Assembly: GCF_022458985.1 (NCBI RefSeq)
Contig: NC_061779.1
Location: forward strand, 22,241,001-22,305,000
Length of the DNA stretch: 64,000 nucleotides
Direction: 5' to 3'
DNA from: Mugil cephalus
Taxonomy: Eukaryota; Chordata; Actinopteri; Mugiliformes; Mugilidae
Below the pieces are notes generated by a model. That model was not told where the DNA came from, did not search any database, and saw nothing but the letters and a program-made list of their open reading frames with translations. Of this stretch, positions 3,801 to 46,400 are shown in pieces; position 1 is the stretch's first letter, and the number at the start of each line of letters is the position of its first letter. The position numbers and the translations under genes were made by a program.

Positions 3801-6800
3801 GAAGGAGACCAAGTGACACTTTTCTTGGGAGTCCTGGGAGTTGGGCTACTCAGTTGTAATTCAGAGGTGGAGCTGCACTCAATCAAAGCTTTGACTGGTG
3901 TCCTGAGAATGCCTTTCAGAGGGCTCATCACAAGGCTTTGCTTAGTAGGTGTCTCAACAACAAGAGACTTGCAGGCTGGAGATCTGAAAGGACTGCCCCT
4001 GAGAGCCATACCACGTCCACATGAGCCGCCTGCTACAGGGCTCTCTGCAACAGAGGAAACATGCCTGGATGAAGGTGGCGTTTGGGGAAGTTTAGGAGTT
4101 TGAGGCGTCCTGGGCGTCCTAGGAGTCCTGTTCCCAGTAGGAGCCCTCCCACGTTTCCCAGGTGACTTTGTTGGTGTCTTGTTTGGACTCTAAGAACGAT
4201 AAAAGAAGGTATATGTATCTCATTATACAGCATATTAGGAGGACAAAAATAATTTGATAAATGCATGGCAATATATGCCATGCCATTTGCATTTTCCAGC
4301 AATTTCCAGAACTGTCATTTGAAAATATTGTGACAGATGTGTGTAGATTGCAAGTAAAAAGTTACCTCAAATACGCTGGAGTCTGTGAACAGCCGTGACC
4401 TGGTGGCCCTGTTTGCACGAGATTGGTCAGAAGGACGACTGGGGGAATCGGCAGCCCCGAAAAGAAGACGCATGGGAGACCGAACGGATTTCAGCTTCAA
4501 TTCAGAGATACTGAGATTAAGTTGGGACGCAGAGAGAGCCTTGTCCAGGTTACGGGAACGAGGTTGAGAGCTTGAGTAGAAGGTGTTTGAATTTCTTCGA
4601 GCAAACTTCTTTGTTCGTGGGCTCCTTCTTAGGTCTGAAAAAAACCCAAAGCACAAACTCATGTAGTGGTGAAAATTGCACGTGCATATTCACTACGTCC
4701 AAAGAAAACAGGACTATTTGCATAATATAAATGGCAATAGGTTGTGATGTTTGTTGTCATAAGCTATATTCAACACTATTTATCACTAATTATCCTAGAT
4801 TCCTGTTGCTTCAGAATCTTTTCTCCGTTCCAAAACCACCTTTATTGTGTACATACAAACAGTGATGCAGATCATAAATTGTTCATGCTCGTGAACTTCA
4901 TGTGAAAATGGTTATAAGTAAAATACCTTCTCCAGGTTTTACGGGCGATTCTTCCACAATGCAATCTTCATTAAAGACCGATCTCCTACAAAAACATGTC
5001 AAAGTAACGTAAATCTTTAATTCACTAAATCATCAATAAGGAACGTTAACACAATGATGGTCACATACCGTCCCATTTTCTGCCTGTACAGGAGGCGACT
5101 GGACACTTGCTTGTGGGCAGGTGTCTCACAGACCTTATTTGTGAGAAGCCTGTGCCTCTCTGAAAGGAAGAGAATTTCCAAGTCACTACAACAGCCTTTT
5201 TTCAGTCAAGCATGTTTGTTTTTCCAATAAGCTGCTGAAAAACGAAATCTGATTACTCCGGTAGATTAAAGGTACCACATAAATAAATTCTTTTAGAAAA
5301 CTGTATTCCTTCACCTTCAGATTCATGAGATCGCTTACGCTTGAGTCCCTCCACTGCAGACACAGACTGGCTCCTTGGCAGTTTGGCTTTCTTTGAGGGT
5401 GAAATAATCTCTTGGTTGAACAAGTTTCTTCTCACCTTGGTCACTTCTGTGGATCAATACAAGGTATTAGAGATCAGCCGGTATACCGGGACAATATCTG
5501 GCTTTGGCATTAGCCGATACATTCATTTTTTTTCCTAGCAAGATTTACAGAGGCATCCACAGGCAGCCCTATGCTACTGGAGATGCTGTGGACCCGTGTG
5601 GCACATACATTACCTTTCCCCCACTAGCAGAGGGCATGCAGCTGGAAAGAGGAAATGCTTGTGATTTAGCTTTTTTAACTGTTTATTTTGTATGCATAAG
5701 AGCATTGAATATTCTCTTGAATAAATGGTTATGTTTTCGGTTAAATTCAGACTCATAACATTTGATATCCTTGTGTCATTTTTATAATGTAAATGGAGAG
5801 AGAAAAAGCACAGAGAAAAACAGCTCAGAAAAATCAGCAGCACTTATCGGCCATTGTCCAAGGATGATGATAATAAAAAAAAACTAAGCAATCTTTAGTG
5901 CAATCTTTTCTCCCATGTCAGCGATGAAGCAACCTCTAACATGTCAGCGATGAAACAACCTCTAACATGTCAGCGATGAAGCAACCTCTAACATGTCAGC
6001 GATGAAACAACCTCTAACATGTCAGCGATGAAGCAACCTCTAACATGTCAGCGATGAAGCAACCTCTAACATGTCAGCGATGAAGCAACCTCTAACATGT
6101 CAGCGATGAAGCAACCTCTAACATGTCAGCGATGAAACAACCTCTAACATGTCAGCGATGAAACAACCTCTAACATGTCAGCGATGAAACAACCTCTAAC
6201 ATGTCAGCGATGAAGCAACCTCTAACATGTCAGCGATGAAGCAACCTCTAACATGTCAGCGATGAAGCAACCTCTAACATGTCAGCGATGAAGCAACCTC
6301 TAACATGTCAGCGATGAAACAACCTCTAACATGTCAGCGATGAAGCAACCTCTAACATGTCAGCGATGAAGCAACCTCTAACATGTCAGCGATGAAGCAA
6401 CCTCTAACATGTCAGCGATGAAGCAACCTCTAACATGTCAGCGATGAAACAACTTTCCCATGTGAGCTTGAAGGGAAGATATAAGTGTATAGTTTTGCTT
6501 TTATATTAACAAAAGTATAGTGGCTTGACCTCTGAAAGAGTGTCCCTCTTATGATTAGCCACAAAGCTGCAAGTGATACAATGCATTAAGGGTCACCATT
6601 TTAATGGAAGGGTTTGAGGATGTTTTGGTCATAAACTGTGTAAAACTGTTAACAGCTGTTAACAGTCACTCTTTATATTTAAGGAGCATTTTTTTCCAGA
6701 GACAAAGCAAAGCTGCACATGTTAACTTTAATCTAAAGAAGCCAAGTGGTGATACGTGTGACCAGGTAAGGTGTAAATCAGGACATACCTTGTGTTTCTT

Positions 6801-9800: not shown

Positions 9801-12800
9801 GTGAACGGCTCATAGTCTTCATCTTCTGTTTCACAGGTGTTCGATGAGCGCCACCTATTGATCAAGGCAGTAAATGACAAAGAAAAAAAAGTCTACTGTT
9901 AAGTAAATGGCAACACAGGCAAAACAAATAAGTAGAAAAGAATAGTTGTGATTTCCAGAGATTTAAAATGTGACTTTTTATGGAGTTTGCTTACGTTTCT
10001 TGCCCCTCTTCTTGTCTGAGTCCTGGGATGTCTGGTACAGCTCAGCCAAACCACTGATCAGTTCCTGCTGCAAGACAGACAACTCCTCCTCTTCTCTCTG
10101 CTCTGGCACTGCCTGCAGCAACCTGTTCAACAATGTAATAATGACATAATGTGGTCTTTAATTATTTGTACTACACTTTCATTATTTGTACTACACTTTA
10201 AAACAAAACAGTGATTTCATTTAATAATATTAAACCTTTATATACACCTACTTTCAATAATGATATTTTTTATAGGAATAGAAAAATAGTGAAATTTGAA
10301 CTAGCCGTACCTCATTGACTCCATTAGATGAGAGCTGACCCCTGACTGGTCAGACTGAGGGAACCAAGTCTCCAGTGTGCTTGTTGTCAGTGGACTATGG
10401 CTGAATTCCTGTAGAGCCCACTCAGGAACTGGATGATCATTAAGCTTTTCTGAGGAATAAACAAATGTAAACAAAAACACAGATGATGAAAATAAAAAGG
10501 GGGTGCCACTATTAAACAATATCCACTGCTTCAAGTAATAAATAAACCATAGTTTTGCTTTTTTAAAAACTCCACATGTTACTGTCATTTTTAAAACTAC
10601 AATCAGCAGGTCACATCAAAAAGAAAAGAGAAGAGAAAGAATTATGGACCCTAAAAACAAGCAGCAGTGGACTACTGAGGAGACCCAGCTATCTGGTACT
10701 GTGGGCTTCATCCTAAGTCTAAGACAAGCCTATCGCACAAGCCAGAGTTTGAAAAAATACAAAAAAAGATGGCTGCTGCCAGCTACGACCGGACCCTGGA
10801 CCAGCTTCTGAACAAACTTTTCTTCACTTTTGTTAACATTTTTACAGCATTTTTTAAATTTTGCCAATTTATTTATTTATTTATTTTTTTTTTTACTTCT
10901 GTGTGAATAAACACATTTGAAATGCAAAAAGCTCATTTTGGCTGTGTTTTCTTATGCCTCACTTAAACTTAGACTAAACTTTTTCAGCAACACTGACACA
11001 CCTACACATAGTCAGGTAACCACCGAAAAGCAAACCGACTCTTTGGAGGTACCAGGTACCAGCACTGAACTAGCACTTGGTTCTTTTTGGTAGAAAAGGC
11101 ATGCCCACTGGAGAGCTCGGAGAACCAGCATGAGGAATGAAAGGCACATAACTGCTTACTTGGAGATAAACAAATTTAATTTAAATGACTCAGTTCAGCA
11201 TCTCAGCTAAGAGATCATTTCCTTAACTCTCTATTTAGACTCACCCATAAGGAATATATCTAGTACTTATTGGGTAATCACTTCTTTAACACCATCCTTA
11301 AGGTAAAGCTTGCTGATGCTGTACTGGACTTCACAATAGGAACTGGTCAGAACTGAGGGAAGGATCAATGCAGTCAGAGACCATGCACCAGAGTGAAGCA
11401 ACATGAGGCCTGTTTTTTTTTTTCAGTATGACCATGACTTTAACAATACATTAAAGACTACACTGACTGACTTTTAGACAGCCTCTGATGCCTCTTATAG
11501 GCCACATAGTTCAGAGGGTTGTAACTCATTTCTAATTTCATTGTGTTTCAACAGCCACTTGGCCAAGAAAACTGGTTTCAAAGTGGCACCAACACTTTGC
11601 CGGACAGGAACCAAATACCACATATGCCAGGGGGATGACTCTGTTTGTCATGATCAATAAGCCCGCTATTATTTTGTGACTGCCCTTCTTCAAGTGAAGA
11701 ACCATGTGCCTGCACTGTCCTTGACAGAAATTTAGAATATAGTAGAGAGAGCTTCAAAGACAATTCGAAGACAAGTGGAGATGTATGAATTGACATAATT
11801 GCATGGCTGTATGGTGGCTCTTTGGCCTGTGGAAAATTAAACTGGTTCTTAGAGGATTTGCAGGTTCATCCAAATCTAAACCTGCATGACCATCATCACA
11901 GAACTGATCGACTGAAGGGAGGACTAACTATTCACTTCAGTTTTCGTCTACAGATCTGTGAAGAAACCTTAACCTAAAACACAACAAGAAGCAATTTAAC
12001 ACATTTACCGTATTTTCCGCACTATAAGGCGCACCTAAAAACCTCCAATTTTCTCAAAAGCTGACAGCGCGCCTTATATATGGACCAATATTGAGCCACA
12101 ACAGGTCTCGCAACTACGGTAAGCAGCCGCCGACTTCATTTTCCCCCGTAGAAGAAGAAGCACGCGGTGCATGCTGGGATATATGACTGCGCGAGGCGTG
12201 CCGTTTCATTTCCATTTGTGTGCTTATGTAAAGACCCCAAAATGGCTCCTATTAAGAGACACGCTTACGACGCAGAGTTTAAACTCAAGGCGATCAGTCA
12301 CGTAGTAAAATACGGGAATAGAGCAGCAGCGAGAGAATTTAACATTAACGAATCAATGGTGCGGAAGTGGAGGAAGCAACAAGATGACCTGCGCCAAGTA
12401 AAGAGGACTAAACAGAGTTTCCGAGGGAACAAAGCGAGATGAGTGAACGGAGTTGTCAGAACGCTGGTTTGTAATCTATTAATAAAGTTTGACTGGCCTA
12501 TCTGACTGTTTTTTTGACATTCCCTTTAGCGCAGTTCCATCTAATGGATGCATAACGTAACCCCAGCCTCTACTGTAGCGTCTATTCTATGCGCCGTATA
12601 ATGCGGTGCAGCTTATATATGAACAAAGTTTTAAAATAGGCCATTCATTGAAGGTGCGCCTTATAATCCGGTGCGCTTTATAGTGTGGAAAATACGGTAA
12701 TCTGAAAGAATTTGAGAGGATCTTCCACAGAGAATAGGATAAACTGTCTGAATCCAGGTGTGGAAAGTCTTACCTAAGACAAGTTTCTAATAACAATTCT

Positions 12801-15511: not shown

Positions 15512-16125
15512 ACCGTTAACTGCAAGTCCTCGGTGACAGTCGGTGGCTCCGGAGCCCTTAACTCAGCGATATGCCATTTAAACGGGTCTGTCTCGGTCAA
15601 ATGTAACCAAGCCCACAGCCACCAGCTTGGAGTGGTCCAGATGACTGTTCACTGTGTGTGGGCACGCAGACGCCATTTACAGTGAACGTTAGCCAACTTC
15701 ATGTTTCTGCTAACAGCAGCTAACTATCATAACGAACGCTAGTTAACACAAGTTACAGGTTAGCTTCAGAAATACAACTGAGTAGCCTCCGGTAAGAAAC
15801 AGCGTAAATAATTAACGAAATATGCACGCTTAAACGTACTTACGTACAAATAAAAGTACTTAAAGCGTCCATATAATGTCAGTCAAACACCTCAACTCAA
15901 CATTTCGCCATTTTCTTGTCGCCGTCTCCTTAACCGTTGGCGCTCCTTGGCTGAGAGCCCTCCCCTTTCCTCTGATTGGTTACATCCTTCAACAACAGTA
16001 ATCTCATTGGTCCAAATGTTGGATCAAGAGACCCTGACGTTATTTGTTTATTGGACAACAGTTCAATCAATCAAATCTGGACAAAACAAAACACAACAGG
16101 AGAGTGGCTAGGACTGATGATTGGC
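15512..16125 (-). promoter_or_regulatory. ticrr promoter with E2F site and CCAAT boxes
   Basis: On the minus strand this upstream region has an E2F-type TTGGCGC (15937-15943, plus strand reading) and inverted CCAAT boxes at 15975-15979 and 16006-16010, exactly 31 bp apart, with more ATTGG motifs at 16050-16054 and near 16115. No TATA box is seen. Paired CCAAT boxes about three helical turns apart next to an E2F site are typical of NF-Y/E2F-controlled cell-cycle genes, which fits an S-phase factor. Function is inferred from motifs only. Confidence 0.6.
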
Positions 16126-16173
16126 AGGCGCCGCTTCCTTTAAAAGTTAAAGCAAGTTGAACCATCACATACA

Positions 16174-16226
16174 TAGGTTTTTACTACTACCGTTTAATAC
16201 TATTGTTCAGAAGTAGTAAAAACCTA
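16174..16226. other. 15-bp inverted repeat with 23-nt loop
   Basis: TAGGTTTTTACTACT at 16174-16188 is matched by its exact complement at 16212-16226. It lies upstream of the ticrr promoter. It may be a tiny MITE remnant or a hairpin; no gene is associated. Confidence 0.8.
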
Positions 16227-16326
16227 CATGGTTAAATTCAAAATAATTTTTCAAGTATTGGTCATCTCTTCTAAGAAAGCCACCTGAACAAATAAATAAT
16301 CCCATCCACTACAGCAAACACTAGAG

Positions 16327-16520
16327 GGGCAGAGGAGCTCATTCTCCAGCAGATTGATTAAACTCCGCTCCCACAGCGAATGCTACATCATTTATTTTAT
16401 TCCTTACTCTATGCAGCTGTATAACAGCTTATGTTTTTGTAACAACTAAGCTACTATGACCAGGTAATATCCCTTGTGGATCTTTAAAGTCTGTCTAAGT
16501 CTTAGTCTAATTATGTAAAT
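16327..16520 (+). mobile_element. Non-LTR retrotransposon (CR1/Rex1-like) 3' fragment
   Basis: The fragment starts with GGGGCAGAGGAGCTCATTCT, which would encode the C-terminus of a LINE reverse-transcriptase ORF (a SSFSxRL-like motif), and ends in a CTTGTGGATCTTTAAAGTCT-type tail. A reverse-oriented, longer copy of the same family is at 49070-49500. Both are truncated. Confidence 0.65.
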
Positions 16521-16899
16521 AAAGCCTCTGTGGAAGACTTGGTAATGGTTATTATCAGTAACTGGCTTGGTGAAGGGTGGTTGAGGAGAAGGCTGTGAAA
16601 TGGATCAAATCTGCTATAAATTAAATATTGCACAAATCTTAATCTGCGTCTCAAACTGCTAGTGCAGTCTACTGCTGATAAAATCCAGATTTGCCAAGAA
16701 CTGAATCAGTTGCTATATGTTTTGAATTGCTCTCTATGTGTTACTTGTATTTGATTCCCAAGAAAGGGTCTTATCGCCATCATTTTGTAAACAAGCAGGT
16801 GTAAAGTTCTGGAACCAACATGTGTGATGTCACACTGAGAACAGAACACACATTCTAAGAACTTTGCTCGGATATCACACACTACAAACAAGACAAGAC

Positions 16900-16983
16900 A
16901 TTGCATCTATCTACTTCTGATACAGAAACAACTCTGCAGATATCTGTGAGAGACAAGCCAAACTTTCTTTAGTTTAAACTCAG
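16900..16983 (+). other. Probable non-coding first exon of the acidic duplicated-module gene
   Basis: The sequence ends in CAG followed by a consensus GTAAGTC donor at 16984. The next exon at 17591 begins right after a CTTTTTAG acceptor and five bases before the ATG, so at least one upstream 5' UTR exon is required. This is the best donor in range; the 5' limit is not defined. Confidence 0.5.
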
Positions 16984-17390
16984 GTAAGTCTAGAGGCAGA
17001 TACCGACTGAACACTGTCCACTCACAAATGACTTTCATGAAGGGAGATTACTGAATCACTGGTTCACTGTTAAATTAACACTCCTGTTTGCTTTTAACAA
17101 AGCTACACAACTACAATGACATTTTGCTATTTTATTAGATGTTAAGTGTGTTCAATAACGAAGCTGATACTGTTATGCTGTGAATTGTTTATTTACTGGT
17201 TTGACTTGAAACAATACCAGTTGTGGTACAGGTGATGTTACTGTTTTGCATTTTTCTTTTGCTCTGGCCCAGTAGCATCATCAGATTCTTACAACTCTAC
17301 AGTAAATTTAAAAGTATTACCTATTACAAATTATACCAGTAAACCCTGAGGCTGCACATATATACTGCATTTATTTCGGATATTTTCAAG

Positions 17391-17495
17391 TTGGAGTCTG
17401 AGAAAGAGACCGAGGGTTTAAGAAGTCATCTTAGAAAAGCTGAGCAGCAGATCAAACAGCAGTTATACTATGAGAACTATGAGAGTGTGAATTAA
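17391..17495 (+). other. Coding-like segment, glutamate/lysine-rich helix ending in a stop
   Basis: Read from 17391 the frame gives LESEKETEGLRSHLRK then AEQQIKQQLYYENYESVN and TAA. The composition looks like real protein (a coiled-coil-like helix) and not random sequence. A possible acceptor TTTTCAAG precedes it, but there is no start codon and the frame closes at a TAA about 50 nt upstream. It could be a terminal exon of an alternative transcript of the neighbouring gene, or a relic. Confidence 0.35.
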
Positions 17496-17595
17496 GCATT
17501 CATGATGAAGACAGCCTGACTCTGACTGACACTTAAATAAGTTGTAGACAATACAATAATGTTTAAGAAGTTTATGTTTTGTCTTTTTAGTTCAA

Positions 17596-18914
17596 ATGGA
17601 CAGAGACGGATCCCGCATGAACTCCCTTGATGGTAAAAAACAGACTCATCATTTCACACGTACCTTTTTGATAAAAATCTAATCATTTATCACAACAAGT
17701 CACAATAAAGTCTTGGAACAATAGGTCACAACATGTGAACTTAGGAGACTCATCCAATCTATGGAATATTAATTTATTGATTAGTTTTTAATGAAAAGAA
17801 CCATGTATAGGCTACTGAACAGTGTATGGATGATTTTTTTATCGTGTCAGAGGTAACACAACTATGTGAATGATCTTGCAGGAGACGAACACCTCCACCA
17901 GCTTGATTTGGTGGAGGCTGTTGCACAGAGCGGTAGGTTCCATGAAGAAGAGATCGCATGGCTGCGGTTCTTCATCAGTAATGGACAGGAGCATGAAGCC
18001 ATCGCTTATATGAGGCATATTGTTGCTGAACGTGACTATGCCAACTATGACAGCGCTGTCTTTCTTGGAGACAATCTTGACAGTGAGGGTGAAGATCAAG
18101 AGACTGACGATGAAAGTTACACTGACAGCGAGGATGAAGCTCCAGTGTTTGCTCCTTTCTCAAGACCAGTGCCTGGTGGATACTATGAAGGGTCTGACAT
18201 CTCTGACTGGGAAAGTGACACTGAAGAAGACCCAGAGTCAGGAGAAGGTAGCAAACACACACACACTGACAGTTAACAAAAAAGAACATTTTGTGTTTTT
18301 TTTTTTTGTTTTTTTTTTTGTTGTTTTTGTTTTTTTTATGAGAACGCAATTGTGTGAATGATCTTGCAGGAGAGGAACACCTCCATCGGCTTGACTTCGT
18401 GGAGGAAATTGCACGAAGTGGTCGGTTCAATGAAGGAGCGATGACATGGCTGCAGTTAGTTATGAGTCATGGACTGGAGTATGAAGCCGTGGCTTATTTG
18501 AGGAATTATATTGCTCAGCGTGACAACCTTGTCATTGTTGAGGAAGATCTTGACAGTGATGATGAAGATCAAGAGTCTGACGAGGAACTTCAGGGTTACA
18601 TGTCTGACTGGGGAAGTGACAGCGACAACAGCACTGAACATGAAGCTCCAGCATTAGCTCCTTCCTCAAGCCGAGGGCCTGTAGGATCCCGGAGGAGGTT
18701 GAGAGAAGAGGAGAGTGATGACTGGACAAGCAGCAAGCAGTTCAGGTGCTGTAATGCAGTTCCTCAGGCTGTCTCCAGCAGTGACCCTGAAGAGAAAGAC
18801 CCAGAGTCAGCGCCTTCCTCCAGACCAGTGGCCGAAAGCTCCAAAAAAAGAGCGAGAGATGAGGATGAAGAAGAAGAAGAAGATGGGAGCGATAGCAAAC
18901 GGTTCAGACCCTGA
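17596..18914 (+). CDS. Unrecognised gene: two tandem copies of a helical-acidic module, 315 aa
   Basis: Coding exons 17596-17632, 17882-18247 and 18370-18914 join in phase 1 throughout with GT/AG junctions, giving 948 nt. After a short leader (MDRDGSRMNSLDG), each large exon encodes one module: a helical-looking core of about 51 residues (HLHxLDxVExxAxSGRFxE, a WL pair, then ExEAxAYxRxxxAxRD), followed by a strongly acidic Ser/Asp/Glu tail. The two cores match at 27 of 51 positions. The second copy ends in KKRARDEDEEEEE and SKRFRP, which could be a nuclear localisation signal. No signal peptide or membrane segment. I do not recognise the family and give no function. A polyadenylation signal follows the stop by 93 nt. 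The gene faces away from ticrr. Confidence 0.75.
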
Positions 18915-19006
18915 CAGAAGTCTGCTGCCAAACTTTACACCCCGTCTTCACAGAGACTTTCATTTCACTGTCTTTTAGTTCTTTTCCTTCTTGTGCAATT
19001 CTTCAT

Positions 19007-19012
19007 AATAAA
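19007..19012 (+). terminator. Polyadenylation signal of the acidic gene
   Basis: AATAAA 93 nt after the TGA at 18912-18914, followed by a second overlapping AAATAAA a few bases on. No competing downstream signal is needed. Confidence 0.7.
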
Positions 19013-19124
19013 GAAATAAAAACCGCACATTTTTCTCATTTGGTTTTAGTGTCATTTCATATTTGGAAAAATATGTTGAATAAAGTGTTTGGGTTTCTGA
19101 GTGTTTAAGCAACACTGAAGAAGA

Positions 19125-19196
19125 TCATCTCATCTCATCTCATCTCATCTCATCTCATCTCATCTCATCTCATCTCATCTCATCTCATCTCATCTC
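19125..19196. repeat. (ATCTC)n pentanucleotide microsatellite
   Basis: About 14 uninterrupted pentanucleotide copies. It directly abuts the repeat at 19197, and on the minus strand it forms that element's 3' tail. Confidence 0.95.
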
Positions 19197-19462
19197 ACAT
19201 ACCGCTTAATCCTCACTAGGGTCGTGCTGTCGGTTGCTGGAGCCTATCCCAGCTGGCATCAGGCGAGAGCCGGGGTACACCCTGGTAAGGTCGCCAGCCT
19301 ATCCTATCACAGGGCTAACACAGAGACACACAAACATACGCAATCTCACCTACACCTAGGGTCAATTTAGAGTCACCAATCAGCCTAACGAGCATGTCTT
19401 TGGAGGTGGGAGGAAGCCAGAGTACCCAAAGAAAACCCACGCAGACACAGGGATGGGAGATC
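19197..19462 (-). mobile_element. LINE 3'-end repeat (L2-clade type) with microsatellite tail
   Basis: The text contains the widespread teleost repeat wording GGAGCCTATCCCAGCTGG, GGGGTACACCCTGG, TTTAGAGTCACCAATCAGCC and AACCCACGCAGACACAGGG. On the minus strand it ends AGCGGTATGTG followed by (GAGAT)n, the usual arrangement for L2-like tails. The clade is recalled from memory, not from a search. Confidence 0.7.
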
Positions 19463-19979
19463 ATCTGCTGAGAATTTCTGAGGCCAAACGATGAAATGTT
19501 TTGTGGGTGTAACTAAACCTGTCATCCAAAATTTTTTATATAAGAACTGTAGTACCCACAGCATCACAACTTCCCATAGTACATCTGTGTGTAAGTTTGA
19601 TGAACTTGAGGCAGAAGTTAAAAGTTCCAGTTAAATCTCCAGTCATCACTCCCCTCTTCTTTCAACCTCCAGCTAGATAATTTTTCAGACTAACTGTGTG
19701 TAAAAGTACCATCTCTCACTAGGGCTGGTGGACAAACCAGAAAGTGAGCACTGGGAGGGGAGATCCAGCATCAGATTCTACAGCACCAGGGGGCGATGAA
19801 GAGCTAAGCAATACAGCTTTGATAGACACAGGCAGAGAGAGAGAGAGACCCATATGTGAGAGACCCATAGTGATATGAAAGACGCCTGCTGAACGTTCTG
19901 GACTTTGTTTTCTTTGACAGATTTTCTCTTCTCCAAGTCATGAGACCACGATTAGGTCGGTCAGGGTCATAGCCACCGC

Positions 19980-25484: not shown

Positions 25485-26043
25485 CATAACATTATGACCA
25501 CCTTCATAATATTGTGTAGGTCTCTCTTGTGTCTCAGTTGTGACTCACACTGAATGGACATGGACCTTCTGAGAGTGTCCTGTGATGACAACATAATGTT
25601 GCTAGTGGGGTCTTTGTGTCCTACGGGTTGAGGGGAGGGGCCTCTGTGGACTGGACTTGTTCTATGCATCCCATAGACAGCCAGTTGTAAGTCAGTTGTA
25701 AATTTTCCACACCTCGTGCTATATATATATACATATATATTTTTTTTTTATTTTATTATTATTTTTTTTTTGAGTTGTTCCTAAAGCATTTTTGTGTGTG
25801 TGTCTCTGTGTCAGGCTGCATCCTGCTGGGGATAGCTGCTGCCATCAAAGAGTGTCATTGCTATGAGGTGGGGGAGGTGGGGGAGGTGTGGGTGTCTGGT
25901 CTGGTCGGGTCTGGTCTGGTCTAGGTGGGTCTGTGTCTAAGTAACATTCACATGAATACTAGGTCCAAAAGTTTCCCAGCAGAACATTTAATTATCACAA
26001 CATGGTCAATGTTATTCACTTCTCCAGTGGTTATAATGTTGCG
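25485..26043. mobile_element. Non-autonomous DNA transposon remnant, copy 1
   Basis: The left end ATAACATTATGACCACCTTC and the right end CCAGTGGTTATAATGTTG are imperfect inverted repeats. The interior shares many blocks with the copy at 36430-36897, for example GACATGG[AG]CCTTCTGAG, GGGGAGGGGCC, CTGCATCCTGCTGGGGAT and TTTCCCAGCAGA. No intact ORF. A Tc1-like origin is possible but was not tested. Confidence 0.7.
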
Positions 26044-27770
26044 GCTGATAAGTAATGTAAACAACCAAATCTTTGTGGCAACAATTAAAAATAAAATGTT
26101 CTTCCAAATTAATCTACAAGCTTTCAGAGTTTACTGGAATAGCAGACAGTGTTAGACAACATTCCCATGAGACATTTGGCATCCACCACGTTCATGGACA
26201 ACCACAAAACACTGTTGTGCCACCAATGTTGAGTCCCACAGTGTGAGTTTCTGTTTCTCTTAAGGCTATTAATATATTATGTTTACTTCTTGATAACTGG
26301 GCTATGATCTCCCACACCAAATCCCTAATGAATACAAAAAGAAAAAAAAAAAGTCTTTCACAATAAACACAAGCAGTGATAGGGAGGTTTTGATTAGGGC
26401 TGTTGTCAAAGCAACATTCATCATTCTCAATATGGCTTGTTTCTGGTAGTCACCTTAATTAAGGATATTTAAAGTTACACAGTTCAAACTGAGTCCAGAG
26501 TTTTACAGAGACATCTCTAATAACACTAATCAGATCGACCATAGCACGCAATTTGTTAAAGAGCAGCAAACAAACACACTCTCGTACTGTAGGTCAACAC
26601 ACATGATAAAAGCCTGTCAGTGTCTGCAGGCAAGCTGAGAGTCTGTGAATTAATCTAATTGAGTATTGTGTTGAGCGTAAAAATGTGGAAGATAAATAAA
26701 AGCATTTGATACTGATTTTCTTCTTTTCTTCTTTCCTTCTTTTCTTCCTTTTTTAATTACTATCAACATATATTAGACATACATCAAACAACAGATAGAT
26801 AAACGACAGATAAAAGACTGGAATCAAAATTATGTGTGCTTGTGTGCGTAGTAGTGATAACAGTGATAATCATATTTACAATTAAAACAATGAAAATATA
26901 GTAATATAGTGGTAATGGGAATTATAATAAGGCTTGTGGAAGTAATAACGGTAACTTCAATGACTGCAAAAATAGTAACAATAAAAATGATTCTGATAAT
27001 AATAGTAAGAGGGAAGGAGGGAGGATGGATGAGGTGTGCGAGAAGTAGAGGATGCATAAAATGTAGCAGGCAAATTTAGATGCCTCAGGTCTCTACAACT
27101 GTCGGCCACCAACATTTATAACACTGCAATAATATTATCATCACCAACCTAACCTACACCGTTTCATCATGTGTAGGGAGAGTGGAATGATAATAGGTTC
27201 TCTGGCAAAACAAATGGATCAGTTGTTTTTTACCCCCTTGGATAGAAAATGAATGTTGACCAGATTTTTTTTACCTTTTTTTCTTTTTATTAATCCTGAG
27301 TGTGTGTGTGGGAGTGTGAGCATGTGTGTGGTAGGATATCTTTCTCTGTGAGGGGATGATGATGTTTCCAGTGAGATATAATCAGAGAGTAGGTTTTTCC
27401 AGTGAGCCAAGTGTAAGGTGATTTCCAGTTCATAAGCATGGTTTTCTTGGTGATGATTACGGCCACAAGGAGTCACAGTCTACTGTGTTCACTGTTGAAG
27501 TTGAATGATGAGAAGTTGCCTAGTAGGCAGAGTGATGGTAATATTGAGTGTTGATGATGATGCCATCCTCTCAAAACTGCTGTGAGTCGGTAGTATTATT
27601 ATTTACACTGCTAATATTCCACTTTAAAAGCAACCGTTTAAACTTTAAAAGGCTGCTTTTGGCCGTAGTTACGCTAGTGGATAAAAATTATGTGGCCAGA
27701 AAAAAAAAGTGAATATCCCTGTTTGCGAATCAGAAAACAAGATGAGAGGCCACAGACGGTCACAGTCACA

Positions 27771-35029: not shown

Positions 35030-36058
35030 CAAGTGAAATACAATCATATGCTGGTAAAAATGAAATACAAAGCTTTTATGATGCAGTGAAAACCATCCAC
35101 GGCCCATGAAGCTGCTCAGTCTCCCCCCTGAAGTCTGACGACGGTACAACACTCATCAAGGACAAGAAGCTCATCACCAATAGATGGGCAGAACACTTTG
35201 AAGCCCTCTTGAAACAGCCCTGCCCAAACAGACCCGTCAGTCTTGGATGAGCTACCTATCCATCCCACCATCCAAGACCTCAATCTCCGCCAACCTTTGA
35301 AGAGGTTAAATATGCAGTAAGGTTTCTGAAGAACGACAAAAAACCCCTGGCCCTGATAGTGTCCCTGTGGAGATCTTCAAACAGAGAGGCTACCTCTGCA
35401 CTCCATCTGCGCCAACAGCTTGGGCATTTCAACACTGGCTTTTTGCTGGCAAAGTCCTGACCAAAGTCATGCTATACAGACTGGTGAACAACATCATGGA
35501 GGAACTGCTGCCTGAACCACAGTGCGGGTTCAGAAGGAGCAGGAGCATTGTGGACATGGTGTTCACAGAAGTGCGGAGAACAACACCAGGACGTCTTCAT
35601 AGCCTTCATTGACCTGTTGAAAGCCTTTGACACTGTCAACAGGGACAACAGGCTGCCCAAAAAAGTGTTTCAGTCTCCTCCAACAGTTCCACATGGGGAT
35701 GATGGCACGTGTCACTGCTGGAGGACAGTAACATGAGCCATTCAGGGTGAGCACTGGTGTACGTCAGGGATGCGTCCTAGCTCCAGTTCTTTTTAACATA
35801 TTCCTCCTGTGTGTGACAAGAAGGACAGTGGGTTTATTGTGGACTTTAGACTCGATGGAAATCTGTTCAACATCAGAAGTCTACAGGCGGTCACAAAAGT
35901 GACTTCCGAGCACATCATCGAGCTACAGTATGCACATGACTGTGCAGCACCGCAAGTTACCCTCACAGCTCCCGTAAGTGCCTATGGCAGGCTGGGTCTT
36001 TCTGTAAATGTAGAAAAGACTGAAGTACTGTATCATATAAAGACCAACTTAAAATCCT
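35030..36058 (+). mobile_element. Decayed non-LTR (LINE) reverse transcriptase fragment
   Basis: Pieces of a reverse-transcriptase ORF appear in different frames: FYDAVKTIHGP, TTLIKDKKLITNRWAEHFEAL, then LVNNIMEELLPEPQCGFRRS, IAFIDLLKAFDTVNRD, VDFRLDGNLFNIRSLQAVTK and LGLSVNVEKTEVLY. Frameshifts, stops (as in HGP-stop, SLG-stop) and a missing block between 35410 and 35440 show it is dead. The catalytic YxDD-type motif reads Y-A-H-D at 35929-35940, with the first aspartate lost. The clade was not assigned. Confidence 0.85.
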
Positions 36059-36429: not shown

Positions 36430-36897
36430 ATAACATTATGACCATCTTCCTCATAATATTTAGGTTTCCCTTGTGTCTCCAAAATAGTTGTGCTTGTCAC
36501 AGAATAGACATGGGCCTTCTGAGTGTGTCCTCTGTTGTCTGGTAACAGAATGTTGTTAGTGGGGGCCTTTGGGTCCTGTGGGATGAGGGGAGGGGCCATT
36601 GTGCATCATCCCACAGATACTTGATCAGAGTGGAATGTAGTGGATTTGGAGGTCAGGTCAACACCTTGCGCTGTTTTTCATGTTTTCTGAGTCGTTCCTA
36701 AACTGTTTTTGTGTGTGTGTCTGTATCAGACTGCATCCTGCTGGGGATGACTGTCATGTGCTACTGGGTGAGGGTGGCCTGGTCTGGGTGGGTGACACAT
36801 GTATAAGTAACGTCCACACAAATGCCAGGTCCAAACATTTCCCAGCAGAGCACTGGATTGTGTTTATGTCTCCTGTCAGTGGTCATAGTATTATGAC
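36430..36897. mobile_element. Non-autonomous DNA transposon remnant, copy 2
   Basis: Same family as 25485-26043 in the same orientation. Left end ATAACATTATGACCATCTTC, right end GTCAGTGGTCATAGTATTATG. It is about 90 bp shorter than copy 1, which has an AT-rich expansion near 25720-25775. Confidence 0.7.
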
Positions 36898-39449
36898 TCA
36901 CAGGTGTATATTCTCTATTGGATTTATTTCAAAGAACGTGTGGACCAGGACTGGAATATTCAAAACAAAATATTCAAAACACTGCAATCAAACAAGGTTT
37001 ATCACTTTACTCATTGTCTGCTCATGTGAGACTGGTGACTGGAAGTCAGGCGCCCACAGTAAAAACCCCAGGCAGGACTGGGAACGTCACTGGTCACATG
37101 GCTAACTGAGTCTGATTCACAGAGAGTCTCCAGTGGCTAAAGAGACAGATAAAATTAGTTAGCAGAAATCGCATCTCTGAGGGAGCTCCCGTAAATCCAC
37201 ATGTTTCCAGCTTTGCACAACAGGTGTTGGGATCTGGAAAGTGCAAACAGCGGCTTATACGGGAATGGCAGGCAGCTTGTCCGTTAGCTATCGTGTCACA
37301 TTCCAAGTTCCTTTCCGGGCAGCCTGAAAAACACCAACAATAACAAGACTGAACTGGGAACAGGGACTGGCTATGGTAGAAGGTTCTGCTGCAGGAAACG
37401 CACTGGTTCAGGAACATTAAGATACTCTCCCAAACCCAAATCAAGCGTTCAGCCCAAACATGATTTGTGTTTAATGATGTGATGTTCCCTTCTTGTACAA
37501 AATGTCCCAATCTGTGCCTCTGGACATCTCCTCAACATCAGGCAGCCGTTCAAATCAGGCACAGCGTGGTGCATTTCTAGCCCGTATAGTAGCAACAAAA
37601 GGCCTTGGACCTATTATACAACCTGTTGCATTCACTGTGGGTTCTTCTCATTAAGTCACTCAATTCACACATGTTCGCACACATGCACACTTACACACAG
37701 AGGTCCCTCCACAGAAAGTGGAACTGCACAATGTGCATAAGTCCACAACCTCACCTATATACACAAAAATCTACTATTAGGTATTTTCTCAATACTTATG
37801 GCAAAAGCGTGAGGGGTAAAGAAACAAGATGTCGATGTTTGTGAATGAGGCAGTTGCCGGTAAGGAGTTTAGGAAAAGGTTGTGCTTTCGTGTAATACTT
37901 AAAACCATTAGAGGCCCAGCTTAAGGCAGGAGCCATGTAAAGCGGTCATGGACGTTGTCATGGTTACTGCGAGTGATGTACTGGTGGAAAGGTACATGGA
38001 AAATTGAGTTAAGCAAGTGCTGCACTGAATTTACAGTGTTTTGTCATTGTTGAGTGGTATTATGTCTGAGCCGTCTGTGTCCGTGGCCACATTACAGAGC
38101 AAAAACAGAGACAAAAAAAAGTTACTAGTAGGTTTTTATCGCCAGCAAGTGGTTCATAGCTTTGGTCTTGTGGGACTTTCCTTCCACTCCTTCACAAATC
38201 TTGGTCATTGGTCTCTGATGTCACTCTTGACAGTGTTAGCCTAAAATGGTACTCGACGCAAGCTATTGAGTGCCTGGTGGAAAACAGGATAAAGACAAGA
38301 CTGAATGTACTTTTCAGAAAAGCAAAACAAAAAACATTTTGCTTTTTTCCAAAATCTATCCAAGCACTAAATTCAACTTGAAAAGATTTTTAACTCTTTG
38401 ACTCTCATCTAAGGCTTCCTCCATTTTGCTGACTGTTGGGGACTCACTCTGCTCTGTTTAGCAAGCTGATTACATAACCACGCAATGATTTTCAGTCTTT
38501 AATCCATTTCATTTTGTCAAGCTCGCTTAGCTCTGGTACGGCTCTTTGCACTAGTCTTGGCTGTTAGAGCTCATGTTTACAAAGACCTTGTTTGATCTGC
38601 CAGACAGTTTGTTCCTGACAGCTTTTCTCCTCTGCGAGAAAGTAACACAAAACAACTTTCTTCCATTTCCCACTTAAATCAGAGGTGTCTATGCATTTAC
38701 CAAGGACGTGTTTTGCTATATGAACTGTTTACTTAGAGCAATCCGTACCACATAAACAGCTATGTAGAGAGCAACTGTGATTGGACTTGCACCAGGAGGG
38801 TTGAGGTTACATATCCAGTGACCTGATGTCTAAATATACTCACATATAACATAACACCAGGAATCACCCCAGAGATGTAACATTAGTTTCTGCAACTCCA
38901 CATTTTTTCACTTTAAGGTTTATCCCCAACCTTTCTCTGCACAATTTATGACCAAGTCGCATGTCCAACACACTGAAATAATCTTGCAGATCATCTGACT
39001 GTTTAATTACACATCTGACAGTGAATTTATGCCAAGGTGAAAATAAAACGGGATGGAAGTGTAGCACTGGATTTAGAAACAACCACAGTATCATCTGATT
39101 AAAAATGTTCCTCTAAACAATTTTATCACCTCTTTTGGGTGCCATTACAACACTGATAACACATTTTTTTTGCTTGCTGTGTTTTGCAAACAATATGATC
39201 ACATTTCATTGGGTTTACATGACAAACTTGTTATTACATCTTGGTATGTGATACCTGACCCAAATAAAAGTGTGACCCTTCAGAGTCAACACTGGCAAAA
39301 ATGAATGTTTCAAATTCTGTGTTACTGCCTGTAACGTACTATATAAGGTACATGGTCTTTTTTTTGGAGGCCTGTGTCACGTTAAAAAGCGTTTTGACAT
39401 GTCGGGAACGAACAAGACAGACAGAACTGTTTCACACAAATTCTCTCCA
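36898..39449. other. Intergenic, one dispersed repeat
   Basis: Apart from the repeat at 37926-38406 nothing is supported as a gene. Confidence 0.5.
37926..38406. repeat. Dispersed repeat, copy A
   Basis: Shares long blocks with 44777-45183, including GAGCCATGTAAA, GTACATGGAAAATTGAGTTA, CTGCACTGAATTTACAGTG and AACAGGATAAAGACAAGACT. Same orientation. Copy A has about 70-90 extra bases near 38080-38170. No ORF and no clear terminal repeats. Confidence 0.8.
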
Positions 39450-43400: not shown

Positions 43401-46400
43401 CAATATCTTTAAGACATTAGTGTTTATAAGAAGTATTCTGTCTGTACCGCACGATACGGAGTCTTAACTTAAAAATAGAGAGATATACACAGAGAACGGG
43501 TTTTCATGCCCAACCACAGTCTCACCGGTGGAGGCTGCTTTCGAAGGCTGAACACTCTGGTGTCACCCAGACTGATGGAGGCAATGGTGGGCTTGGTCCC
43601 GAGGGAGGCCTCGTCATCGCTGTGCCAGCCGATGCTGTCGTGGCCATCGCGATACAAGTTACACAGCAGCGAGTTGAAGCTGAGTCCGCTCGCTTGACTC
43701 ACTGTCTCCCGAAGGGTTGCCAGCAATGGATGCCACTATGAGGAAAAAGTGAGAAAAAGAAAAACTGCTCAGCAGATAATACTAGTAAGTATGAAAGACA
43801 AGCATACAGAGAAGAGACAAGTATAGACACAATCATTACATGAACAGAAGTTTCAGTATTTTTGCACTTACTAAGAAAATGATAAATTTTCTAATAAGCT
43901 GTTTATAGGCTTAGTGAATATGGCAATAATATTCCCCTTTACACGCAGAGGGAACAGATCCTCAAACACATTCTGGAGAAACAGGCCCCTTGTGATTTTT
44001 ACAAACAAAGACAAATACAATGATAAATGTGCTGGCGTTCAATTCTTTCATTAAGTTTAAGAGCATTTGTGTTTGTGGGTTTTTTTTCTTCTGAACACAC
44101 AGCTCGACCCACGGTTTGCATACTATTGGCTACTTGGTTTGAGTCTGACACCCAGAGTCTACCATACACAGGAAACATGTCTAAAGAGTGCTCCTCAAAT
44201 CTAAATAATGTTAGCATAACGCATGTATTAATCAGAAAATATTACTCTATAAACGGGCCTTATTCAAATAATGTTGTTTACATGATGATGCAAATTAGAT
44301 TTTTTTTATATAGTTGGAATAAAAATGGAAAATTACTGTACATGAGGTCTAACCTCAATTCATTCAAAATATATTTAAAAAAAAATCCATAGATACAACG
44401 CTGAAGGTAACTTCCTGTTAAAAGGGTTTTTCCTTGCCACCGTTGCCTTCAGGTTTGCTCTGGAAGTTTCAGGCTGGTTTTTGCATCTTGAGACAATTTG
44501 TATTGTTATTGATGCTATATAAATTAAATTGAATTGCACTGTACTCAACTGAATTGAAAAAGGTGTTTTACAGTACTATGTTCTCTTGAGTCTCAGTGCG
44601 GTTATCTGACCTGTGTGTTGGCAGCCATGGTGGAGCGAGCGTACGTATAGGGCAACTCTCCATACCAACAGGTGAGCCTGGGCTCCTGGTACGCCTCACC
44701 TGAACCACAACACACACAGACAAAATCAATACATCAGAAATAATAACATTTAGCTGAGAAACTCATGTCACAACATGGCAAGAGCCATGTAAATCAGTCA
44801 TAGAGGTTGTCATGGTTACTGTGAGTGAAGGTACATGGAAAATTGAGTTAAGCAAGTTCTGCACTGAATTTACAGTGTTTTGTCATTGTCGAGTGGTATT
44901 ATGTCTGCGCAGTCTGCGATCTTTGACACTGTGGGACTTCCCTTCCACTCCTTCACACGTGCTGGTCATCGCTCTCTGACGTCAGTCTTGACAGTGTTAG
45001 CCTAAAATGGTACTTGACGCAAGCTACTGAGTGCCTGGTAGAAAACAGGATAAAGACAAGACTGAATGTACTTTCCAGAAAAACAAAACAAAAAACAGTT
45101 TGTGTTTTTTGTCCACAAATCAAGTCCTCTGTCTATCCATGTACTTAATTCGACTTGATAAGATTTTTACTCTTTTTACTCTCCATACCAACAGGTGAGC
45201 CTGGGCTCCTGGTGTCCCTCACCTCAACCTAAACACACACACAGGGGGCTGGATATTGCTGAAAAATAATATTGAAAATCTATTCACGTAACAAAATGTG
45301 GGCAGCTGAGCGATACATCAGAATTAATAACATTTAGTTGAGAAACTCACGTCAGAATTAAACGCTCAAGATAAATGTTTATGAAGTCTGATTCCCTTAC
45401 CTAGAAACCAGTGGATGTGGACAATTAATTAAAGCAATGACTTAAAACCTTATACCGGTCTCTACAATGGAACCATAACAGCCCTTTCAAAGGGGGGCGA
45501 AAACTGACACAGATCTATTCCTACTGCAGCAGAAAGTAACACAAATGTCTAAATTCAATTTCTGCCTCCCTGTCTTTTCCTGAGAGTCTGGGAGCATCTC
45601 TCTTTCTTTGCAAACAGCTAGCCTGCTTCCAAGAACCAATTCTATGCCATTAGTGTATTTTGGCCAGCCATCTGGTACGGGAACACGGTGAAACCAAAAC
45701 AAACTGCCTGGGCAGCCATCACTTTTTATAGTACTGAATTATTTAGGGGCTCTTGAGCTAATATTTATAAATATGTGCAGTCATTTATCAACTTGCAAAA
45801 GCTTTGCACGCTCCATAAAAAGGCGCTTATCAGGGACCTTAACCCACCGGTCCTGAGACCAAATGGTCGGAAAAACTGAGTCACTGTATTAAAAGGTGGT
45901 TTTAAAGCAGGGGGGGATAAATCACGTGTGGAGGGACATATTGTCAAGTTAATGTTGATGCTCCACTTCTTCCTCAACTGTTCCCCAACCCAAACGTCAC
46001 ATGGACTTTGTTGACAAACTCTGGAGAGTGACCCACCGGGGATTACACAACCCGTCTCTGAGGTCAGTGTTTAGAAATCGAAGCCCCTTGTCTTCCTCAT
46101 GCTGTTTGTCTGCTCTGGAGCTGTCACAGATTAACACACGAGCTGGATCTGAGCCAGCCGAGAGAAAAGGCTGATTCTGAAGCTTGGCCTCGTGTCAACA
46201 TGCTCAAAGTGTACAGTCTGAGTACAATGTGTGGGTTTTCTTTCCTTTAAACAAACAATGCCAACTGTTTTTTGATCTTATGCACAAACTGCCATTGTGT
46301 GAAAAGAAGGAGCGGCTGCAGTCCCTTTTGGAGCAATTTGAACAATCTTCTGAAATTGTAGTGTACTGACTTGAAGAGAAAGTAATTAACAACATATTCT

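Follow-up and report, generated by a model that had tools for sequence, protein, structure and literature searches.

What kind of gene lies beside TICRR/Treslin in this part of the Mugil cephalus genome, how did it come to contain two related exons, and does its product belong to any known family? We analyzed the locus within the whole 64-kb stretch of DNA presented here (hereafter the window). It very probably holds a real, unstudied vertebrate (fish-like) gene that encodes two copies of a small three-helix unit, together with acidic tails.

Gene model and tandem copies of one exon

The spliced frame consists of three exons (17596–17632, 17882–18247, and 18370–18914) that give 948 nt and encode 315 aa plus a stop codon; all introns of this frame have GT/AG ends and are of phase 1, and the exon ends, phases, and length in the preliminary description were correct. 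The donors are GTAAAA directly after 17632 and GTAGCA directly after 18247, and the acceptors both read CAG, with their last bases at 17881 and 18369. Splice consensus further suggests a noncoding 5′ exon that would end at 16983 and be spliced to 17591. The features are as follows.

16850–16983, + strand: candidate noncoding 5′ exon, with a nominal start; consensus donor CTCAG/GTAAGT, with GTAAGT from 16984
17591–17632, + strand: start-codon exon; acceptor TTTTTAG to 17590; coding from the ATG at 17596 for 12 codons and a single further base (phase 1)
17855–17881, + strand: intron end common to both copies; 24/27 identical to 18343–18369
17882–18247, + strand: module-1 exon; 366 nt, symmetric phase 1-1
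17884–18036, + strand: core 1; 51 residues, three predicted helices
18037–18246, + strand: module-1 acidic Ser/Asp/Glu tail, mostly predicted to be without structure; SDWES motif
18343–18369, + strand: intron end common to both copies; 24/27 identical to 17855–17881
18370–18914, + strand: module-2 terminal exon; stop codon TGA at 18912–18914
18372–18524, + strand: core 2; 51 residues, three predicted helices; 27 residues identical to core 1
18525–18911, + strand: module-2 acidic tail; SIM-like LVIVEED, SDWGS, DDWTS, and basic clusters RRRLR and KKRAR
18915–19030, + strand: 3′ untranslated region, with a nominal end; AATAAA poly(A) signals at 19007 and 19015

Just 3′ of the gene, a TCATC pentamer array occupies 19125–19197 (14.6 copies, 100% matches), and a 33-nt segment of the exon-3 tail (18694–18726) has an inverted match downstream (19638–19670, 94% identical).

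The cores encoded by exons 2 and 3 align without gaps, with 27 of 51 residues identical and 42 of 51 similar (blastp: 67 bits, E = 8e-20), so that the earlier claim of two related phase-1 exon modules stands and its hand count of identities was exact. Their local alignment score was 161, whereas none of 2000 shuffles scored above 57. At the DNA level the repeat reaches into the introns, its starts being found at 17855 and 18343; upstream of the 27 shared intron bases, identity is 14/30 in the next block and then 10/30. The repeat has a single gap between the module copies, which is in-frame (15 nt). The 64-kb window contains no third copy of the module, the next best tblastn hit being at E = 5.1. 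These observations support the origin of the gene by duplication, in tandem, of a symmetric exon along with the end of the intron before it. Genes are known to grow by this route, through copying of symmetric (1-1) exons, and we found no difference in kind between such genes and the present one, in which exon 2 (366 nt, 1-1) is repeated in exon 3 together with the intron end.

A smaller internal repeat is present in the exon-3 tail, where residues 231–260 match residues 282–314 with a score of 57 (shuffle mean = 27; 0/1000 shuffles reach 57); its units read APSSSR...RRRLREEE...SKQFR and APSSRP...KKRARDEDE...SKRFR. The module-1 tail resembles the two units weakly, 125/1000 and 15/1000 shuffles scoring as high.

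Coding constraint and predicted structure

We translated the aligned core DNA of both copies in six readings. The claimed frame was the only reading open in both copies, and its alignment score (161) was the highest of the six. It contains 24 residue changes, of which 15 were conservative; the other five readings had 3, 4, 8, 3, and 3 conservative changes. Three wrong frames retain more identities than the claimed one (33, 30, and 29 vs. 27, of 51). As a control we placed the same 34 nucleotide changes (15 of them transitions) at random in 5000 trials from each copy, which yielded means of 6.2 and 6.1 conservative changes, with 15 or more in only 2/5000 and 1/5000 trials. Residue changes as such were not reduced (24 observed vs. 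random-substitution means of 22.3 and 21.8), and the total alignment score was reached in 297/5000 and 333/5000 trials. Since the changes are as numerous as under random substitution, yet conservative, the constraint lies on residue type. The core-core dN/dS is 0.81 (bootstrap 0.34–2.14), which alone does not exclude neutrality, and the synonymous distance is 0.31, with 24/51 residues different. The gene thus either evolves rapidly or is only loosely constrained. In 500 simulations, a first-order Markov model never produced a stop-to-stop ORF of more than 179 codons, whereas the longest in the 3.2-kb region has 190. The open frame, the frame-specific conservative change, and the ORF length bear out the earlier proposal of a coding gene with a duplicated exon, and we have little doubt that the locus is a true coding gene of the host.

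AlphaFold2 was run on module 1 (121 aa) and on the module-2 core (56 aa, including the first five tail residues) with two-sequence alignments. Module 1 was predicted to form helices at residues 2–15, 21–32, and 36–55 and to be without structure thereafter, with pLDDT of 83, 79, and 77 for blocks across residues 21–50 and of 45–56 in the tail; in the prediction for the module-2 core these three helices recurred (mean pLDDT = 75.2, pTM = 0.51). Model confidence is moderate (mean pLDDT = 61 and 75, pTM = 0.34 and 0.51, with about 77–85 in residues 21–50), and the two predictions are not independent, since both were built from one pair of sequences. In five of six helices the hydrophobic moment was not above that of shuffles, which argues against clearly amphipathic helices. 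Both cores are predicted to be three-helix units and the module-1 tail to be disordered, in agreement with the helical-looking core and acidic tail of the preliminary description.

Searches for relatives and comparison with known folds

The modules had been described as showing no recognized family pattern, and the profile searches agree, no family in Pfam, NCBIfam, or PHROGs being matched with a meaningful score. Pfam gave no usable match at a limit of E = 10, above about 0.1 of which range the HMMER filters remove most matches: module 2 had none, and module 1 had only FTO_CTD (0.12), which is below the cut-off and is taken as chance. NCBIfam had no match for the modules, and two PHROG families found with module 2 (0.17 and 0.38) are likewise attributed to chance. 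A sequence search of the PDB with module 1 returned kinesin light chain (residues 27–49, E = 0.2) and another chain at 1.7, and kinesin light chain reappeared with the core profiles (E = 2.1 and 0.27); module 2 found no match in the PDB. Nanobody, dodecin, and antibody chains (0.2–1) were rejected as chance matches.

Beyond families and the PDB, our searches covered collections of prokaryote, plasmid, phage, and viral sequences. Among 266 candidate stretches in genome_contigs, the sole confirmed match was a Polaromonas locus (L001, E = 2e-6 relative to the candidates). We consider it a chance match because its frame differs from that of the covering 465-aa ORF, by eye a membrane transporter, and because it rests on the word DEHLHQLD used to find it. 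An exonuclease of Achromobacter phage Mano, matched by module 1 only (E = 10), is also ascribed to chance. In viral_contigs the core pair and each module found no relative among 22, 600, and 5 candidate stretches; the Treslin control was equally matchless there, so missing relatives in that collection say little. Plasmids, searched with module 2 only, contained no relative, and in a literature search of titles and abstract openings nothing among the matches listed pointed to this gene.

The closest likeness among PDB sequences, a weak one, is to designed TPR proteins. With the two-core profile, 5fzr and 5fzq had whole-sequence E values of 1.2e-5 and 2.6e-5, which sum three near-identical repeats; a single stretch alone has E = 13–24 in 5fzr and 17–32 in 5fzq. 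Core helices 2–3 and each repeat of the designs have the pattern GxxxEAIxYMRxxV in common. These designs derive from the hairpin of ribosomal protein S20 (PMC5074805). The present modules differ from TPRs in having one hairpin with an extra first helix each instead of 34-residue tandem repeats, and the register of a TPR solenoid is absent, the core starts being 122 residues apart with a 71-residue tail between the cores. No TPR family profile was listed by Pfam within E = 10, a limit at which the filters pass few matches above about 0.1. What is shared is a hairpin pattern spanning some 20 residues, which does not make this a TPR protein.

UBA/CUE-like domains consist of three short helices with a Gly turn before helix 3. 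The core is likewise predicted to have three helices, with a Gly before helix 3, but its helices are probably longer than those of UBA/CUE-like domains; Pfam listed no UBA or CUE model under the same limit and filters. Acidic nuclear histone-binding or activator proteins of the NASP type have in common with this protein long Asp/Glu/Ser tails, CK2-type sites, and NLS-like basic clusters; no sequence relation to NASP-type chaperones was found, and the resemblance is one of composition only.

Tail motifs, proposed function, and rival explanations

The whole protein has a pI of 4.16 and a net charge of -56.6, with 27% Asp + Glu and 12% Ser. Motif counts were compared with those in 1000 shuffles of the whole protein, a control that exaggerates enrichment since charged residues occur in blocks. 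There are 12 strict CK2-type sites (shuffle mean = 3.2; 0/1000 as many), and the loose CK2 pattern shows no enrichment (14 vs. a mean of 11.7). There are two [KR][KR][KR]x[KR] clusters (mean = 0.01; 0/1000) and two K[KR]x[KR] clusters (mean = 0.03; 1/1000), the basic clusters of the module-2 tail being RRRLR at residues 242–246 and KKRAR at residues 293–297. The motif [SD]DWxS, a pattern picked after viewing the sequence, occurs three times (mean = 0.01; 0/1000), and its copies may be owed to the duplication. A SIM-like LVIVEED at residue 188 precedes an acidic Ser-containing run, although 62/1000 shuffles also contain one, and the matching position in module 1 does not fit the SIM pattern. 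RVxF, LxCxE, and SUMO-site patterns are absent from the 315-aa protein.

The explanation that we favor, with a probability of roughly 0.4 for the whole, combines a coding gene, an exon duplication, and a nuclear acidic adaptor. A symmetric phase-1 exon encoding a three-helix core and an acidic tail would have been duplicated in tandem with the last ~27 bases of the preceding intron. The C-terminal basic clusters may carry the protein into the nucleus; given a coding gene, composition makes a nuclear location reasonably likely. There CK2 could phosphorylate the acidic adaptor, the pair of helical cores might gain avidity by engaging a partner protein together, and the acidic tails, disordered and bearing [SD]DW motifs, might contact basic surfaces, e.g., those of histones, or transcription co-regulators. 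Taken together, the mechanism of a nuclear, CK2-phosphorylatable adaptor is tentative, with location, partner, and activity deduced from sequence features; the duplication, the open frame, the frame-specific conservative change, and the motif counts on which it builds are observations. The gene is most likely a new but ordinary fast-evolving orphan that has been exon-duplicated. We see a lesser, though appreciable, prospect that the 51-residue core represents a lineage-restricted family of vertebrate domains not yet described, of which a nuclear acidic adaptor uses two in tandem, with module number varying between species by symmetric-exon duplication. If the domain is new, the gene would offer a small system, open to testing, in which a vertebrate orphan acquired a module through exon duplication, and its clear signature could be used to search proteomes; if it is just another fish orphan gene, the gain is one correct gene model next to TICRR and not much besides.

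The core could instead be a divergent version of a known small helical fold, either a TPR-like hairpin plus one helix or a three-helix bundle of the UBA/CUE type, within an adaptor of, e.g., ubiquitin or chaperone pathways. Kinesin light chain, the best PDB match of module 1 (E = 0.2), is a TPR protein, and the core profile finds 5fzr and 5fzq through a pattern present in each of their three repeats, while the three helices and the Gly before helix 3 would suit a UBA-like domain. The E values of 13–32 for single designed-TPR stretches, the lack of any listed Pfam model for TPR, UBA, or CUE within the filtered E = 10 limit, and cores that are out of TPR register, with one hairpin per exon and 71 tail residues between them, make this unlikely. 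We think it less likely again that the modules belong to a lineage-specific, copy-number-variable defense or conflict gene and diversify against pathogen proteins. Tandem exon copies are common in fast-evolving genes of that kind, and 24/51 residues differ here at a synonymous distance of only 0.31, but dN/dS (0.81) is not above 1 and the changes are mostly conservative. The upstream stretch 16001–17600 contains no more than two ISRE-like words with one mismatch and two GAS-like words that match TTCTAAGAA exactly, which a hand estimate puts close to chance.

The frame might also be the ORF of a repeated, transposon-like family, a multi-copy element that is domesticated or still mobile. Fragments of other mobile elements do occur in the window (an HTH ORF at 12155–12439 and a weak RT-like match at 35313–35609); the spliced multi-exon structure with poly(A) signals, the single pair of copies in 64 kb (next tblastn match at E = 5.1), and a Pfam result without transposase or integrase matches render this origin improbable. 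A decaying or spurious ORF would account for a dN/dS near 1 between the copies, for residue changes as numerous as under random substitution, and for the low overall model confidence, yet conservative change is confined to the claimed frame, the indel is in-frame, the ORF exceeds the simulated lengths, and the splice sites and poly(A) signals are intact; we regard it as the least probable of these alternatives, and as very improbable.

The position of the gene beside TICRR/Treslin was confirmed by Pfam (Treslin_N, 1.1e-41; Treslin_M, 1.2e-29): TICRR/Treslin lies upstream on the minus strand, with its first coding exon ~2 kb from the gene. Downstream come a tRNA-Asp and, at the far side, a minus-strand DUF4695 gene (Pfam, 1.7e-40), which we take to be C11orf96; an exon near 57.8 kb, which has no Pfam match, presumably belongs to HSD17B12. 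The label of a synteny junction derives from these gene names, some of them tentative, and not from genome comparison. The TICRR gene region contains a minisatellite at 5914–6453 (26-nt units, 20.8 copies, 98% matches), presumably intronic because its period is not divisible by three, and, on the opposite strand to TICRR, an ORF with a Brinker-type/transposase HTH (12155–12439, + strand; BrkDBD, 7.9e-8; HTH_Tnp_1, 4.3e-5), which is likely a mobile-element remnant. The weak reverse-transcriptase match at 35313–35609 (+ strand; RVT_1, 0.0097, below the cut-off) is probably a LINE fragment. Two ORFs on the + strand, at 38160–38378 and 44927–45145, are 74% identical over 66 residues and represent a dispersed repeat, and a weaker pair, at 25925–26152 and 36641–37102, is 56% identical over 32.
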